Shown here piece after piece: positions 30,437 through 39,621 of a stretch of 64,000 nt of DNA (positions are counted from its first letter, which is position 1; each line of letters begins with the position of its first letter). Below the pieces are notes generated by a model. It ran no database searches and was not told the origin of the DNA. It saw nothing but the letters and a program-made list of their open reading frames with translations. The translations under genes and the position numbers were made by a program. Source of the stretch: Paracamarosporium sp. OC-R06-R3 (Eukaryota > Ascomycota > Dothideomycetes > Pleosporales > Didymosphaeriaceae); assembly GCA_019828545.1 (NCBI GenBank), contig JACVRA010000175.1, forward strand, positions 310,001 to 374,000. The letters run 5' to 3'.

Positions 30437-33400
30437 ATGGCCCTCATACGCCTTTTGCAGTGCAAACCGAACGGCGACATCGTCTTTCGCGAAACAACCG
30501 GCAGCGATGTTCCTGCTTACGTAATACTCTCACATACATGGGGGACAGAGGAGGTTAATTTTCAGGACATGGAAGCCAACGCGGACATGAGCAAGACAGT
30601 CAGCAAGGCTGGGTGGAGGAAGATCCAGTTTTGCGCGAAGCAGGCTGCAGCTGATGGGCTGCAATACTTCTGGATAGACACCTGCTGTATCGATAAGAAG
30701 AATGCAGTCGAACTTAGTGCGGCGATCAACTCTATGTTTCGGTGGTATCAGAACGCCGCGCGCTGCTACGTCTACCTTTCAGATGTCTCCAAAGCCGATG
30801 GGGTGGATAGCGAAAGGGCATGGAAAGAGGCTTTTAGGAGGAGTCGATGGTTTACTCGAGGCTGGACGCTTCAAGAGCTTATCGCACCAAGGCTGGTTGA
30901 CTTCTTTACCTCAGAAGGTGACCGACTTGGTAGCAAATTATTGTTAGAGTCCGAAATACACGAGATCACGGGCATTGCGAAGAATGCTCTTCGAGGCGAA
31001 GCACTATCGACTTTTAGTATTGGAGAGCGGAGGTCCTGGGCAGAGAGCCGTAATACCACGATTGAAGAGGATGGAGCCTACTGTCTAGTTGGTATATTCG
31101 ATGTTTCTATGGCACTGATCTATGGAGAGAGAAGGGATCAAGCATTCCGGCGGCTGGAGGAAGAGATCCACAAGTTGTACAAGGGTAAACCTCTGCCTAT
31201 ATGTGCCAATTGAAGCGATGAACTGACTAGCATAGGTGTCGATTTCGAACAGTACTCCGTCGGACTTAACCTTGCGTCATTTCCTGAAGCTGCACAGTTT
31301 GTGGCCAGAGAAAGAGAGCTGTCACAGATGTATGAGCTGCTTCACGGCCATGGTCATGGTCGTAGTAGCCGATCAGCAGTAGTCCTGCACGGGCTCGGAG
31401 GAATTGTCAAAACTCAGCTTGCGATCGAATACATCAGAAAGCATAAAGAGAAACACACGGCGATATTCTGGCTGAATGCGAATGATGAAGATTCTCTCCG
31501 GCTTAGCTTTCGCGACATTGCTCAACAAATCCTAAAGTACCACCCTTCGACAAGAGTACTTAGTAATGTAGACTTGGAAGGAGACCTCGACCGAGTGGTT
31601 AGTGCAGTCAAAGTCTGGCTCGATCTCCGGAACAACACACGTTGGCTGATGATCTATGACAATTACGACAATCCCCGAACCTCTAACCAATTCGATAGCT
31701 CGACAGTGGATGTGCGTCAATATCTACCAGAAAGTGACCAAGGTTCAGTGATCATAACGACACGGTCAGCGAATGTTACTCAAGGGCGGCGTCTCCCCAT
31801 TCAGAAATTGACAAGCCTTGAGGACGGGCTCAAGATCTTATCGAACATGTCTAGAAGAGAAGATATCGAAGACGGTATGTTCATTTAGGTATCAGATGGG
31901 TTGAATTAATCTAATAAGACAGATTCCGATGCAAAAGCGCTTGTCATCAAGCTAGACGGCCTGCCACTTGCTCTCTCCACGGCTGGGGCTTATCTGGAGC
32001 ATGTGACGACTAGCTTCGCGGAATACCTTCAGCTATACGAGGCATACTGGTTGAAACTCCAGAGCACGAGCCCAAAACTGAATACGTACGAAGACCGCTC
32101 ACTATACACGACATGGCAGGTCACCTTCGATCGGGTTCAAAAACAGAACGCGGCAGCAGCCCAGTTGCTCAAGCTGTGGGCATATTTTGATAAGCAAGAC
32201 GTATGGTATGGACTTCTTCGACACGCTCTCTCTACAGACGACAAGTGGATACAGAAGCTTACTGAAGACGAACTGAGCTTTAATGAGGCGGTTCGACTGC
32301 TATGCGAATACGGTCTGGTTCATCTAGAGCCTTCACTTGGACAATCATTTGGGTCGGCGGGGTATAGTGTGCATAGCTGTGTACACTCGTGGACGATGTA
32401 TGTATTAAATAATGATTGGGACGATGATTTGGCAAGGTTAGCTCTGGCTTGTGTGGCATCTGAAGTTCCTAGCAAGGATACAGACAAGTGGTGGCTCCTT
32501 CAGCAGCGGCTCCTTCAACATGCTGCAAGACATGAACATTCCATTACAAATGGCACGGTAGATATTGTGGGAATAGAGTGGGCACTGTACAACCTGGGCA
32601 ACCTCTACAAGGACCAGGTCAAGCTATCAGAGGCAGAGGCTCTATATAGCCGGGCACTACAAGGCTACGAGGAGACATTCGGACTAAAGCACACATCAAC
32701 ACTCAATACAGTTAACAACCTAGGCCTACTCTACAGCGATCAAGGCAAGCTAGTAGAGGCAGAGGCTCTATATATTCGGGCGCTACAAGGTAAAGAGGAG
32801 ACACTAGGACCAAAGCACACATCAACACTCTATACAGTTAACAACCTAGGCCTACTCTACAGGGATCAAGGCAAGCTAGTAGAGGCAGAGGCTCTATATA
32901 TTCGGGCGCTACAAGGCCACGAGGAGACACTAGGACCAAAGCATATATCAACACTTGATATAGCCAACAACCTAGGTATCCTCTACGCTGACCAAGGCAA
33001 GTTGCCTGAGGCCGAGGCTCTATATATTCGGGCGCTACAAGGCTACGAGGAGACATTCGGACCAAAGCATATATCAACACTCGATACGGTCAACAACCTA
33101 GGCGTCCTCTATAAGGATCAAGGCAAGCTAGTAGAGGCAGAGGCTCTATATATTCGAGCGCTACAAGGCTACGAGGAGACATTCGGACCAAAGCACACAT
33201 CAACACTCTATACAGTTAACAACCTAGGCCTACTCTACAGGGATCAAGGCAAGCTAGTAGAGGCAGAGGCTCTATATATTCGGGCGCTACAAGGTAAAGA
33301 GGAGACACTAGGACCAAAGCACACATCAACACTCGATACAGTCAACAACCTAGGCAATATTTATATGGAGCAAGGCAAGCTAGCAGAGGCAGAGACCATG

Positions 33401-33811
33401 TGCAATCGGGCACTGCAAGGTTACGAGGAGGCACTCGGTCCTGAACTTCTGCCGTCCTATTTACCAGCGTTGAATACAATGTTCAGTTTTGGTGACCTTT
33501 TCTCACAAACAGGTCGCGAAGACAAGGCCAAGATAATGTATACTCGGGCATTATCTGGATACACAACTGTCCAAGGGCCTTCTTCGAAATGGGTCAAGGA
33601 GCTTGAAAATCGACTTCAAGCGTTGCAAGTTGCGTCTGCTGAGCTAAAAGAAGACCAGGCCAATTCTACAGAGATTGGAGCGACGAAGCCAGCGTCTGTT
33701 GAGCCAAAAGAAGACCAAGCGAAGTCCATAGAGGGTGGAGCGACAAAGTCAGGGTCTTCAAAGCGCATATTTCGCAAGTTGGGAAGGCGGCTTGGCATTT
33801 CGCACCACTGA
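30437..33811 (+). CDS. HET - NB-ARC - TPR NOD-like receptor
   Basis: Three exons (30437-31184, 31236-31874, 31923-33811) give 1091 residues. A HET domain occupies about residues 25-150 (SHTWG at 32-36, WIDTCCIDK around 79-88, RGWTLQELIAPR around 141-152). A linker leads to NB-ARC: P-loop HGLGGIVKT at about 301-309, Walker B WLMIYDNYD near 386-393, and GLPLALSTAGAYL near 475. Seven to eight TPR units of 42 residues follow (about 685-980), then a polar tail with a duplicated KEDQA segment and a basic end. Such receptors sense non-self through the repeats and trigger heterokaryon-incompatibility type death through HET. Oddities: Val307 replaces the P-loop glycine before Lys308, and the repeats are nearly identical at DNA level. 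Confidence 0.93.
32590..33475 (+). repeat. 126-bp tandem coding repeats (TPR units)
   Basis: Seven units of 126 bases (42 codons) are in register within the receptor gene; CTATAT landmarks fall at 32642, 32768, 32894, 33020, 33146 and 33272. Units are mostly 90% or more alike by eye. A stretch of more than 100 bases around 32810-32920 is repeated exactly 378 bases (three units) further on. Confidence 0.9.
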
Positions 33812-34187: not shown

Positions 34188-35558
34188 ATGGCGCCGTCCG
34201 GATACGAAGCTTTAAGTGATCCCAAATCCCAGATCCGACTTCTGAAACTGGAGGTTATTAAAGACAGACCTAAATGGACGATCGAATCACCTGTAGATCG
34301 TTCTTCCAACCAGGGGTTTATGATCGGTGGGACACCTGTCGAATTTGCAGCATTATCTTATGAGTGGGGTCCGGATAAAAAAACTAAAGATCTCAAAATC
34401 GACGGGGAAGTCTTCAAAGTACGAGAAAATTTGTGGCGGTTCCTCAAAAGTCTTGCAGACTACTGCAAAGACAAGCAGACACCGCGCCTGCGGGAACAAC
34501 CAGGACCACGCCTACTGAAATACTTCTGGATCGATGCCATCTGCATCAATCAGGGAAACGAAAAGGAGAAGTCGGATCAGATTCGCTTACTTGGTGAAAT
34601 TTACAAGGTAGCTACTTGCGTTATTAGTTGGCTTCGGGATACCCCTCACTCTGATGGCATGCGCTACCTCAACAATGACCCTATGGGCTACTCCATCGAT
34701 GACCCTATGGGCCGCACCAAAAAACCTGTGGAGCAAAACCACATTGCAATCAAAAACGATCTACAGGCACTGTTGGACAAAACTTATTGGACACGGATAT
34801 GGATGGTGCAAGAAATAGTTCTCGCACAGCAATGGTGGATCTTTTGCAGCGATAAATTCGTTGAAGGTGGAAAATTTGTCCAATTTCTCGACGCCCAACG
34901 CAAGTTTTACGCAGAGTCAGAGCTCAAAGATATCAACGCGTATAGAATTGTCGAAGAAAGGACTCAATACAAAGATGGTCACAGGTCCACACTCCTAGAG
35001 CTCTTCTGTCGGTTTTTAGATTTGGAATCTACGTACCCAGTGGACAAAATCCGAGGCCTCTTAGCTCTATGCTCAGACAATACCGAAAAAGTCGACAGAC
35101 TTCTCCGCCCCTTTTCCGACGGAAAGAAAAAGTTCGGCAGCAATCCCAAGGACAAAAGTATGATATGCGATGAGATGGTCAGACTTGCAGAGGAAGCAGG
35201 TATGAAAGAAAAGGAGGATTTGGTGTGCTGCCGAGACTTGGTGTCTGGGGTGCTCGGCGTGAACCTGAACTTTCTAGCCACGAAGCTTGAGACGTACTTT
35301 GATGAAAAGAAGCGGTCTGGATTATTTGCTGAATCTCAGATCGGTACGCAAGAAGTCCAAAATGAAGCCGGTAATCGTCGACGTTTTCCATCAAGCGCAC
35401 GGATTCACCGTAAAGATCAAAGTACCGCGAAGGCCCACCACAAATCTATGAGATCTGGTCCGAGACTGAATGATCGTTCCGAAAGCAGTACAGAGCCTCA
35501 TTCTGACAGACACAACGGAGATAGAGGCCCGACGGGAAGTCAACCACCCTTAACTTGA
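34188..35558 (+). CDS. HET-domain protein (heterokaryon incompatibility type)
   Basis: Single exon of 456 residues from ATG 34188; an upstream in-frame ATG at 34140 would add 16 hydrophobic residues and is less likely. The HET domain has its three canonical blocks: FAALSYEWG (residues about 53-61), YFWIDAICINQGNEKEKSDQI (about 112-132) and WTRIWMVQEIVLAQ (around 200). A region DLESTYPVDKIRGLLALCSD follows, the usual post-HET segment. The C-terminal 120 residues are polar and probably disordered. Compared with many HET proteins (600-800 residues) it is short. It sits between a HET-NLR and the SesB-type pair, so it likely belongs to the same incompatibility island. Confidence 0.88.
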   Translation: MAPSGYEALSDPKSQIRLLKLEVIKDRPKWTIESPVDRSSNQGFMIGGTPVEFAALSYEWGPDKKTKDLKIDGEVFKVRENLWRFLKSLADYCKDKQTPRLREQPGPRLLKYFWIDAICINQGNEKEKSDQIRLLGEIYKVATCVISWLRDTPHSDGMRYLNNDPMGYSIDDPMGRTKKPVEQNHIAIKNDLQALLDKTYWTRIWMVQEIVLAQQWWIFCSDKFVEGGKFVQFLDAQRKFYAESELKDINAYRIVEERTQYKDGHRSTLLELFCRFLDLESTYPVDKIRGLLALCSDNTEKVDRLLRPFSDGKKKFGSNPKDKSMICDEMVRLAEEAGMKEKEDLVCCRDLVSGVLGVNLNFLATKLETYFDEKKRSGLFAESQIGTQEVQNEAGNRRRFPSSARIHRKDQSTAKAHHKSMRSGPRLNDRSESSTEPHSDRHNGDRGPTGSQPPLT

Positions 35559-35894: not shown

Positions 35895-37933
35895 TTATAG
35901 GTCTTCGTTGTATCCTTCTCCTACATCTTCCGCCTCTTCTATATACGGATTACGATAGTTTGAACCCTGCAAATTACTGCATACAGAAGAACTATGGTGG
36001 GGGTTTTGCTCGTTTACAACAATGTCACTCCCTATAATTTCCGATCCGTCCTTCAGGTTTTGAGGGCATTCTTCATTGTCTGATCCACTCTTCTCAGCAC
36101 CCACCCCTTCAGACGTTGAGCCCATTTCGAAATCAGCGACAGATTCAGCCTCACAGTCTACCAAATTCGGCCCGCCAGTGCAACTATCATCTTCTTTCGA
36201 AACCGTTGTTACATCATGGTCATTGAAATTGGTAGTGAGTATAACATCGGATAGAATAGGTTCGATATGCTCGATCATGTGTTCGCTGTCCTCTGGGCCG
36301 ATTGCTTGATGTGTTACACTGGAAACAACTTCGTTGGCTGAATTTCCGTCCTCCTTATTCTCTTCACACTCTATATTGTGCGATGGAGCCCGAGTGTCAG
36401 AATTGCTGACGATGTTAATATCCACATGGTCGTCTTTTGTGCTACCACTCTCAAGACCGTCAGAATGTTCGACCTTGTTGTGGCTTTGAGCTGTCATTTG
36501 ATCTTGGTGAGAAGTATGAGCTATTCTTTTGGCTTCTTTGACGTGATATAGAACTGAGGCTAGTATGGTAGATGGTAGTGGTTGTTCGAATGTCGGTGTT
36601 TGCATGCGAAGTCTCTCGAACCATTTGAGGTACTGGAGATACATGTCGACAATAGTTTGTCTTCGATAAATCGGCTCCTTCCATATGACCGGAGCTATCC
36701 ACAAACGGTCCGTCTTTTGCACGTCCTGTAAGTTCCAAAACATAGGACACACTGGCCTATCGAACGGCGGCCGCGGAAGCGGGTTTGGCCTTGCTGGTGC
36801 TGTTCGAGAACGAGATTCGTACGGATAATCTGACGGCTTGTCATGCGCAACTCTTTTAGATGGAATCTTCACTTTGTAAGCTGGGGGGAGATAGTGTGGC
36901 CGAGCAGAGTATGGTATACGTCGCATTCTGTCTGGTCTTGAACTAAACTGAGATACGTTATGCACGGAATCTGCTGGTGGAGAGTTGTTCCAAGCTTCCC
37001 GACGATCTAGGCCGTAAGGCGAGTGTCTTGGGGGAGATGTTGGATGTGTTGAATATTGGCGTGATAAACGAAGCCTTGGCTCGAAAGAAGTAGGAAGAAA
37101 GCCAGGAGTAGATGTGTCGCTGTCGTCATCGCTTGATGATGAATTCTGGTGATCGTCGGTGTCGGTTTCTATCCTAGTCTCGGGATTATCAGAAGTTCTT
37201 GTGATAAGTCCATGAGCACGTTTTATTTGTACTCCTTTTAGTTTCGGTCTGGATTGCATCTTGCTACCCACATGTCCTGATTCTTTCGAGATCGTGGGTA
37301 CTTGAGCTGAATCGAATGCTTCACTTTCTTTCGATGGTTGAAACCTCACTTTACGATAATCCTCTCGTCTCCGTAGTGGTCGTAAGGAGCTGGACTTTGG
37401 CGGGGTGTCGTCACCAGCCACGGATTCCGCACTGGACATATAGTTGACATGGAAGTCATGACAATGAACAGTTCAATACATACCTCAATTGTGCAAGGTG
37501 GACCTTAAGCTCTTTAGAATATTTAGCTATGTGCTCGCTGCGGAACCCACTTTCCCTGAGTTCTCGTCGAAACAGACGCCATACTTCTTTGTCATCGTCT
37601 GAGTAAGTCGTGAGCTGTGACCGCACATCTTTCCGTTCTAAGAAGGCTTTCAGTGTCTTCAACAGTTCGTCAAGCTGTGGGCTGGTATTTTCTGTACTTG
37701 CTAAGGCCCCAAAATGGACTACGAGAAATCAGTATAGTGTGATAGAGCAGTAGTCTGATGGTGCTTGCATTGTGCTCCTATACTCCATTAGTATTTCAAT
37801 GATACGGGACTTGGTGGAACGGACCGATGATTTGGTTGTGATCTCCGCCTATGTTACCGGTTATTGCTCCACGATTCCAGGCGGATGCACCATGGATAGT
37901 GGCTCCATTAATGGTAGGTTTCGCTTCGTCCAT
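35895..37933 (-). CDS. Candidate partner protein with N-terminal amyloid-like motif
   Basis: Proposed exons are 37933-37825, 37718-37484 and 37431-35895, giving 626 residues. The last intron (GTATGT..CCAG) is firm; the first (GTCCGT..GTAG, 106 bases) is uncertain. Residues 8-36 are Gly/Asn/Ile-rich: NGATIHG at 9-15, RGAITGNI at 21-28, then GGDHNQ. This matches the C-terminal tail of the facing SesB-like protein. Next comes a predicted helical domain (about 38-115) containing SPQLDELLKTLKAFLERKD and a WRLFRRELRESGF stretch. The rest is long and Ser/Asp/Arg-rich except for an aromatic-rich block near residues 320-385. No NB-ARC, NACHT or enzyme domain is seen. It may act as a sensor or adaptor; function is inferred only from the shared motif and gene order. 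Confidence 0.55.
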
Positions 37934-38341
37934 GTCATGATGGACTGAATGAGAGGCTAACTTTCGCGAAGCAACAGCTGCCCGTGAGCTGCCCTTGAAC
38001 TGCAAACAAAACAGAACGTCGCGAGGCTCAGCGCAATCAGACACGTGGGTGCGGGGTTATCCACTGAATACCTCTCTTTGGCACGGTTGGTTAGTTTCGT
38101 GTGAGGCGGCCAATAAGAGTACTGTGCAAAAGTGTTCTCGTATTACATAACCCATGGTTGGGTAAATCGATAAAAAGAACAGGGGTTGTTGCAGCCAGAA
38201 GTAAGCAAACCCTAGAAACTGGTTCACCGGAATTTCAGCCTCGCCTCAAGGCATGGCATTAAAATAAGATAAGCTTCAAGGACGCCATATTAATCAAGAC
38301 TGTGAGAAGTCCCGTTCATTCTTTGCGGATAAGCCAACAGA
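37934..38341. promoter_or_regulatory. Divergent promoter of the motif-sharing pair
   Basis: 408 bases lie between the two head-to-head starts. A possible 5'-leader intron acceptor (TTTGTTTGCAG) for the minus-strand gene lies near 38000-38010. No operator is recognised. Shared control of the two genes is plausible from spacing alone. Confidence 0.35.
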
Positions 38342-39621
38342 ATGACTGATATCTTCGGACTGGGAGAACCGCTTTATAATCCACCGAATGCTGTGGCTGA
38401 GTACGTGAATATCTGTGTACAACAAGTGGGGGAGACTACCTCAAGCTTGCCACTGATGGTAGACTAGTATCGTATTCGTTCATGGTCTTGGCGGCCACAG
38501 GACCAGTACTTGGACATTCCAGCCTACAGACGATGTCCCGGTTCAAACCTTCTGGCCACAAGATCTGTTACCGCAAGTCTGCAACAATGCACGGATTTTG
38601 TCGTTTGGCTACGATTCCAGATTTGTTGACTTCTTCCCGGTCTTCAGTCGCAAAAACCTTGCAGTAGGCACAAATATAGACGATCATGGAAGTGCCTTGC
38701 TCCTGAGCTTAACTGGGCTGAGAAGCACAACAGCTTCCGTAAGTGTAGACTTAGGGTATTAAATCAGACACTCGCCAAGTAATCGATCCTAGTCCGACCG
38801 TCCGATTGTCTTCATAGCGCATAGCTTAGGAGGTTTGGTAGTTGCAAGTGCTCTTGCTAGGCACCATGGCGCGAAGGACTCGGAAAAACAACTTGTCGAT
38901 AGTGTTTGTGGTATAATATTCCTCGGAACACCATTCGAAGGCTCAGCCAAGGCTCGATGGGGTCTGACAGCTCTCCGATACCTCTCGCTCATCGCCTCAT
39001 CGAAGAAAGAAGACGTAAAAGACTTGGAAGAAAGATCCCGGAAGTTGATTGAGATCAACTCCGCGTTCTCCAAGCTGCTCAAAGACAGAGACAGAGACCG
39101 TACCAGGCGACCGCTTGAGGTTGCTTGCTTCTTCGAAGAACACCCTACCTTCGTTGCGGGGAAGAACATTGGCCTCATCGTACCAAAGAGTTCAGCTGGG
39201 TCATTGGCAGGCATTGACCCGGTACCGATCTCCGCAAATCATTCCGGCATGTGTAAGTTCGCAGGGAGTTATGCCAATGGGTATGTAATGGTCTCAGAAC
39301 TGCTTGTTGGTTGGATAAAGAGCTTGGACGAGGTTCTACCAGAGTCCATGAACGCGGTAAGGCTCCCTGAATTTGTTTGCAGCCCTAATTGCTGAACTAC
39401 GAGAATAGAGATCCGTGGTAATGGGACCGACTCACTATAATGGGCCCATCCATGGAAATACCGGCGTCATTTCGGGAAACATCTATTCGACCAAACAAGA
39501 TGGTGTACGACTTGTTGGAAGCGCTGTAAGCGAGAAATCAGAAACAAGTATTCCTGAATCAACTAATGAGCTTTACTAGAACTACTACGGTGACAGTTGG
39601 AACGGAAACAAAAACACTTAG
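38342..39621 (+). CDS. SesB-like alpha/beta hydrolase with C-terminal amyloid-like motif
   Basis: Five exons (38342-38400, 38468-38738, 38793-39356, 39409-39525, 39580-39621) give 350 residues. Exons 1-3 encode a lipase/esterase fold: DIVFVHGLGGH (oxyanion region, residues about 20-30), FIAHSLGGLVV with nucleophile Ser121, IIFLGTPFEGS, and SANHSGMCKF with probable catalytic His260. This is the SesB-type fold found fused to or beside fungal NOD-like receptors. Exons 4 and 5 add only the tail: NGPIHG (309-314), TGVISGNI (316-323), GVRLVGSANYYGD and an Asn-rich end. All four introns have clean GT..AG ends and good branch points, and the frame is kept throughout. It is divergent from the motif-bearing partner gene. 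Expected role: membrane- or lipid-directed death effector activated by templating of its tail, which is inference. Confidence 0.8.

Follow-up and report, generated by a model that had tools for sequence, protein, structure and literature searches.

The 64,000-nucleotide stretch of contig JACVRA010000175.1 of the fungus Paracamarosporium sp. OC-R06-R3 that we analysed (positions 310,001 to 374,000, hereafter the window) contains a divergent gene pair, in which a SesB-like hydrolase carries a Gly/Asn-rich motif at its C-terminus and the facing gene encodes a similar motif at its N-terminus. We lean towards reading the pair as a two-component, motif-coupled effector/activator system with a protein other than a NOD-like receptor (NLR) on the receptor side. 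In the available text of published reports, the N-termini of fungal NLRs template the C-termini of effectors (PMC3321046; PMC7885112; PMC5485727). The geometry and the motif relation found here are like those of such amyloid signalling pairs, and the departure is that the receptor-side protein has no detected NOD domain.

An earlier note on this DNA had described two matching segments in genes of divergent order. Both are present, YNGPIHGNTGVISGNIYSTKQDGVRLVGS in the last of the four exons of the hydrolase gene and INGATIHGASAWNRGAITGNIGGDHNQII in the first exon of the partner (coordinates in Table 1), and the genes diverge from ATGs about 410 bp apart. With spliced models, the described arrangement was borne out, with the motif at the C-terminus of a SesB-type hydrolase and a similar one at the N-terminus encoded by its neighbour: the Smith-Waterman score of the hydrolase tail against partner exon 1 was 42, and only 4 of 2000 shuffles were as good. 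As in an amyloid signalosome, the matching motif of the adjacent gene sits at the other end of the protein. The motif-bearing partner in the window shows no NACHT or NB-ARC domain of an NLR.

The hydrolase model (38342-39579, + strand) has four exons and a frame open for 354 amino acids, and its product ends in NGPIHGNTGVISGNI. In the whole protein DUF676 and Abhydrolase_6 score over the Pfam cut-off, and together with 812 relatives at E<=1e-20, some of them named SesB by their source, these matches place it among the SesB-type hydrolases. The Ser of AHSLGG is nearly invariant and one His is invariant in an alignment (A2) of 65 relatives. A SesB relative from Didymosphaeria variabile (P0004) shares 80% identity across 84% of the query. 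The predicted structure of another relative (P0009) is confident in the hydrolase, for which a fold search returned generic alpha/beta hydrolases, while residues 291-354 have block means of 42-60 in pLDDT (predicted local distance difference test) and the tail is poorly ordered. The motif-bearing tail is flexible and lies outside the hydrolase fold.

The relatives were collected with four SesB proteins of this genome as queries, one with a guessed start, and the tail counts below rest on the 120 listed among the 812. At least 45 residues follow the hydrolase in 81 of these 120; inspection by eye removed 13 that could not be aligned or resembled sigma, which left 68 tails on which the C-terminal motif could be aligned. 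From their source names, we take these relatives to include Dothideomycetes, Eurotiomycetes, Leotiomycetes and Sordariomycetes. The core majority sequence of the 68 tails is SINMGDVNYRGNISNNGGVVMGHIVGTAKDGVRITGS. An N followed by up to two residues and then by G and a hydrophobic residue occurs in 57 of them and G-[VILMFYAG]-x-x-[GA] in 60, whereas the RHIM/PP-like G-h-Q-x-G is found in four and the PP consensus core N.GLQL.G in none. The conserved stretch is about 37 positions long and includes polar or charged positions, e.g. D-G-x-R-like in 40/68 tails.

The earlier note could not assign the motif to the HRAM, sigma or PP families. This stood insofar as the PP (PF17046), sigma (PF17106, NACHT_sigma) and HET-s profiles of Pfam, a set that does not cover the HRAM subfamilies, matched neither the tails of the window, C306, C3, C74 and C327 nor the N-termini of the window, C60, C306, C3, C74 and C327 (C numbers denote other contigs of the assembly), in searches in which the filters of HMMER remove most matches with E above 0.1. 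As a positive control, the sigma-type SesB tails of C89 and C131 in the same genome pass the PF17106 cut-off. PF17046 is also absent from the 25 of 44 families listed for the 65 relatives, and hence has at most one member among them. However, a new motif confined to this locus was rejected, since the window tail is the conserved tail of many SesB relatives. The motif is widespread on SesB relatives and not detected by the PP, sigma and HET-s models of Pfam. A single sub-cut-off match of the window tail to a viral Pfam family is surely spurious.

The partner gene (37933-35895, - strand) has three exons and by our model encodes 626 residues, starting with NGATIHGASAWNRGAITGNI. Its first exon has a paralogue on C60, with 25 of 36 residues identical and the donor in the same codon phase. 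Between the two copies of exon 1, nonsynonymous divergence (dN) is about 0.19 and synonymous divergence (dS) about 1.27 (dN/dS about 0.15, on a mere 24.5 synonymous sites), a pattern which indicates that exon 1 is under purifying selection. Because the C60 paralogue is conserved and dN of exon 1 is well below dS, the N-terminal motif of the partner is most likely coding and constrained. Exon 2 is 60-68% identical between the paralogues (45/74 residues), with synonymous sites saturated. The partner splice site was chosen from the C60 paralogue; the window donor, GTCCGT, is imperfect, and several alternative donors keep the frame, of which one at 37857 would delete GNI. A stretch similar to the exon 2 module DDDKEVWRLFRREL occurs in one distant protein (P0001), behind a different N-terminal region without the motif. 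Further downstream, the C60 paralogue (C60:313988-316236, - strand; provisional gene model) has RING matches under the cut-off, and it also has a short C-terminal stretch resembling the one in the window partner.

By its comparison with known pairs, the earlier note implied that the neighbour is an NLR-type receptor, and this was not supported: across all three exons no Pfam family, NOD domain or other, scores over its cut-off. The N-terminus has no Pfam match, exon 2 has three sub-cut-off matches (best E 0.063), and exon 3 has no family at E<=1. We rejected an overlooked NOD domain as well, since exon 3 runs to its stop without a domain and genome-wide searches for NACHT, NPHP3_N and NB-ARC gave no match inside the gene.

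The relation between tails and N-termini was measured with a profile built from the 68 database tails and run on 3162 six-frame open reading frames (ORFs) of at least 30 residues. The SesB tails of the window (48.8 bits, the best), C306 and C74 top the ranking at 46-49 bits; the C3 tail straddles two sequence pieces, hence it is outside the ORF set, and scored 21.6 bits alone. The partner first exons of C306 (8.0 bits), C3 (7.3) and C60 (6.3) rank 4, 5 and 6, and the window partner ranks 9, tied with the 10th, at 3.6 bits, with two unrelated ORFs between C60 and it. The NLR-type N-terminus of C74 ranks 16th (1.6 bits), and neither the tail nor the N-terminus ORF of C327 scored. The profile score was reached by 1 of 2000 shuffles for C306, 3 for C3, 9 for the C74 N-terminus, 13 for the window and 28 for C60. 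Among four tails and five N-termini, those of the window are each other's best match, and the own-pair alignment of C74, like that of the window, was equalled by 4 of 2000 shuffles. The codon pattern for G-[AV]-I-x-G-N-I occurs five times in the genome versus once for a reversed control; three of the five fall in the tail and the partner of the window and in C60, and the other two lie at C55:70985-71005 and C262:59265-59285. A guessed exact DNA pattern had no match in the 43-Mb assembly.

The layout recurs in the genome, which has 31 SesB-related matches at 20 places. The earlier note had proposed a search for neighbouring genes that share the segment; at six of seven inspected places a related motif was found by profile, shuffle test or Pfam in the N-terminal region of the facing gene, although at C327 it is only suggestive. 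On C89, a sigma-type SesB faces a SesA-sigma-NACHT-type gene (SesA and NPHP3_N over cut-off, sigma just under at 24-26 bits), a known type of pair with the same geometry as in the window. On C131, a sigma SesB faces a gene whose sigma motif scores 28.1 bits with its neighbours; this gene was considered as an NB-ARC NLR, and the pieces scanned gave no NB-ARC or NACHT Pfam match. On C74, SesB faces an NPHP3_N (over cut-off)/NACHT-ankyrin gene with the motif in an upstream exon. Near the P-loop of that gene, at about 60.2 kb, an in-frame TAG lies between the motif exon and the NLR part, and possibly the gene is a pseudogene or its splice model has to be changed. For the partners on C3, C306 and C327, the scanned ORFs contain no detected NOD domain; weak ankyrin matches occur in the last of them. 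In all five non-NLR partner genes (window, C60, C306, C3 and C327), the end of the motif exon is in phase 1 when donors are selected by eye. The tail of the C327 SesB (GNIQVGRDFSIN) and the facing first exon (GDISTSGDLTIN; C327:71880-73599) have another short motif in common. A separate sigma cluster, with three matches to the sigma motif over cut-off inside 1.7 kb (C306:553576-555223), lies about 18 kb away from the SesB gene of C306.

Several results weigh against a motif-coupled pair. The facing gene was inspected at seven of the 20 places, namely the window, C3, C306, C74, C327 (next by score) and the sigma-tailed C89 and C131, and the ORF set consisted of the window and regions picked for holding SesB or partner paralogues. 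The partner exons score weakly one by one (E 0.41, 0.66, 1.4 and 9.5), and C327 fares poorly on the profile (131/2000 shuffles). Own-pair matches were equalled by 22 of 2000 shuffles for C306, 61 for C327 and 677 for C3. The C60 N-terminus scores 41 with the C74 tail and 40 with the C3 tail, against 37 with the window tail; for the C74 N-terminus, the C306 tail (42) is a slightly closer match than the tail of C74 itself (40). C60 carries the partner motif, yet there is no SesB match on its contig, which ends about 1 kb upstream. Finally, no orthologue of the partner was found: there was one weak match without the motif, and residues 1-115 had no match at E<=10. From the shuffles and the cross-pair comparisons, the group as such and the window pair are therefore well supported, the C3 and C327 pairs poorly. 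Co-variation of the two segments, which the earlier note had expected, is at best weakly supported; the window pair is a mutual best match, but elsewhere foreign tails often match equally well or better, so that pair specificity in general is unsupported. Strict co-variation of GNI was not upheld either, as the tails differ at G[NH] and both GHL and GNI occur at C3.

In the motif-coupled system that we favour, the hydrolase would be the effector, with the Gly/Asn/aliphatic motif on its C-terminal tail. The partner would cluster or change upon a stimulus, whereupon its N-terminal motif, encoded by a separate first exon, would assemble and template the tail of the hydrolase; the assembly would probably be a cross-beta amyloid of the kind formed by HRAM, PP and sigma. 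Templating would activate or relocate the hydrolase. The signal would run from partner to enzyme, the hydrolase would be active, and the outcome would be cell death or defence.

The trigger could instead be an unlinked NLR that carries the motif. The divergent partner would then not be the activator; the same motif would recruit it as a second responder, a scaffold or a brake. We regard this as rather unlikely. In its favour, 106 NPHP3_N matches at E<=0.01 occur in the genome, the C74 NLR-type gene carries the motif upstream, and three-component PP and sigma clusters with one NLR are described in the part of the literature available (PMC5485727). Upstream regions of 20 NLR-type genes gave nothing above 1.9 bits on the profile, apart from which a weak GDVNF stretch (1.5 bits) was seen by eye; this is weak evidence, as the motif-bearing C74 N-terminus itself scores just 1.6. 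The NLR-type gene of the window has a HET domain and shows no motif by eye. We think it improbable that SesB proteins have a conserved regulatory or membrane tail that is not amyloid, with partner exon 1 as its shuffled copy, binding to the hydrolase through ordinary contacts. The length of the conserved stretch and its polar or charged positions would suit such a tail, and a profile search of the PDB found no amyloid relative (its single match, an IgA1 protease repeat, was judged spurious), but the Gly/Asn/aliphatic make-up, the low predicted order and the N-/C-terminal pairing fit known amyloid motifs. A chance match between Gly-rich stretches is slightly more improbable still: shuffles that keep composition seldom reach the window scores and four partner exons fall within the top 9 of the 3162 ORFs, even though the core is short, the partner exons score weakly one by one and the matches within the C3 and C327 pairs are no better, or little better, than chance.

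Beyond the window pair, we tentatively raise the possibility that fungal amyloid-type signalling extends beyond NLRs. The SesB tail motif of this genome would be coupled to a number of unrelated proteins that lack NOD domains and that each carry the receptor-side motif in a shuffled first exon, as modular sensors around one enzyme type. These partners may be variously disordered, helical, weakly ankyrin-like and possibly RING-bearing. If a pair with a non-NLR partner is real, it enlarges the range of proteins able to turn on SesB-type effectors and supplies a family of tails, and of their partners, open to direct tests of seeding specificity. In the available text of published accounts, motifs are tied to NLRs (PMC9815663; PMC12261475; PMC12881547), and a main survey of fungal motifs starts at NLR N-termini or at effectors encoded near NLR genes (PMC9815663); a pair with a non-NLR receptor side could be missed by both routes. 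Neither a non-NLR motif partner nor this SesB tail was found in the literature text searched, which excluded figures and supplements, and a published logo may cover the tail.

The only NB-ARC match in the window belongs to a separate NLR-type gene, and the window has no NACHT or NPHP3_N match. That gene was rejected as the motif carrier, since its ends show no motif by eye. Its TPR units are near-identical repeats and its P-loop reads GLGGIVKTQ, with Val at a position where the consensus has Gly. Elsewhere, an NLR-type gene at C3:193820-194970 has a short Gly/Asn-rich N-terminus with GNVHGDVNFANG, weakly SesB-tail-like (1.5 bits), and an ORF at C85:494500-495650 that resembles a PNP_UDP enzyme by eye ends in GKVIQGSTFHSNGGAMSF and adjoins an NLR-type gene; the two may form a pair of the PNP_UDP-associated motif (PUASM) type.

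Table 1. Features of the divergent pair and its neighbours (window coordinates)
Feature	Position	Strand	Remark
HET - NB-ARC - TPR NLR-type gene	30437..33811	+	no terminal motif by eye
Single-domain HET protein gene	34188..35558	+	no terminal motif by eye
Partner exon 3, a long open frame judged by eye to be of low complexity	35895..37431	-	
Partner exon 2, module ...DDDKEVWRLFRREL...	37484..37718	-	
Partner exon 1, encodes N-terminal motif	37825..37933	-	C60 paralogue with same junction phase
Partner motif segment INGATIHGASAWNRGAITGNIGGDHNQII	37826..37912	-	residues 8-36 counted from ATG at 37933
Intergenic region common to the divergent pair	37934..38341	.	
SesB-like hydrolase, exon 1 MTDIFGLGEPLYNPPNAVA	38342..38400	+	spliced model, GT-AG introns
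SesB-like hydrolase, exon 2	38468..38738	+	spliced model
SesB-like hydrolase, exon 3, bears AHSLGG nucleophile motif	38793..39356	+	spliced model
SesB-like hydrolase, exon 4, C-terminal tail with motif, after phase-0 intron	39409..39579	+	
SesB motif segment YNGPIHGNTGVISGNIYSTKQDGVRLVGS	39436..39522	+	inside last of four exons

The pair shares features with each of the described systems, as far as the available text of the reports describes them. Like HET-S/NWD2 and HRAM pairs, it is divergent, as at the P. anserina locus, with an N-terminal motif on one gene and a C-terminal motif on the other (PMC3321046); unlike there, where a HeLo effector, an NLR partner and 21-residue repeats are found, no HET-s profile match is seen here. 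PUASM systems likewise have an enzymatic effector with a C-terminal motif, but the pattern there is FxGxGxQxxGxGxF and the effector PNP_UDP (PMC9815663). In the PP (RHIM-related) clusters PNT1/HELLP/SBP a putative lipase can be the effector, and the core spacing G-x-x-x-G found here resembles the G-h-Q-h-G of PP (PMC7885112); in contrast to PP, the 68 database tails lack N.GLQL.G and have the central Q in 4/68, and the tails and N-termini searched with PF17046 give no match. The SesB/het-eN system of Nectria haematococca differs in its sigma motif and NLR partner, whereas no sigma match and no NOD domain were found in our pair. With that system and with other SesB-NLR pairs, the window pair shares a SesB-type hydrolase with a C-terminal motif and an adjacent gene with an N-terminal motif (PMC3321046).

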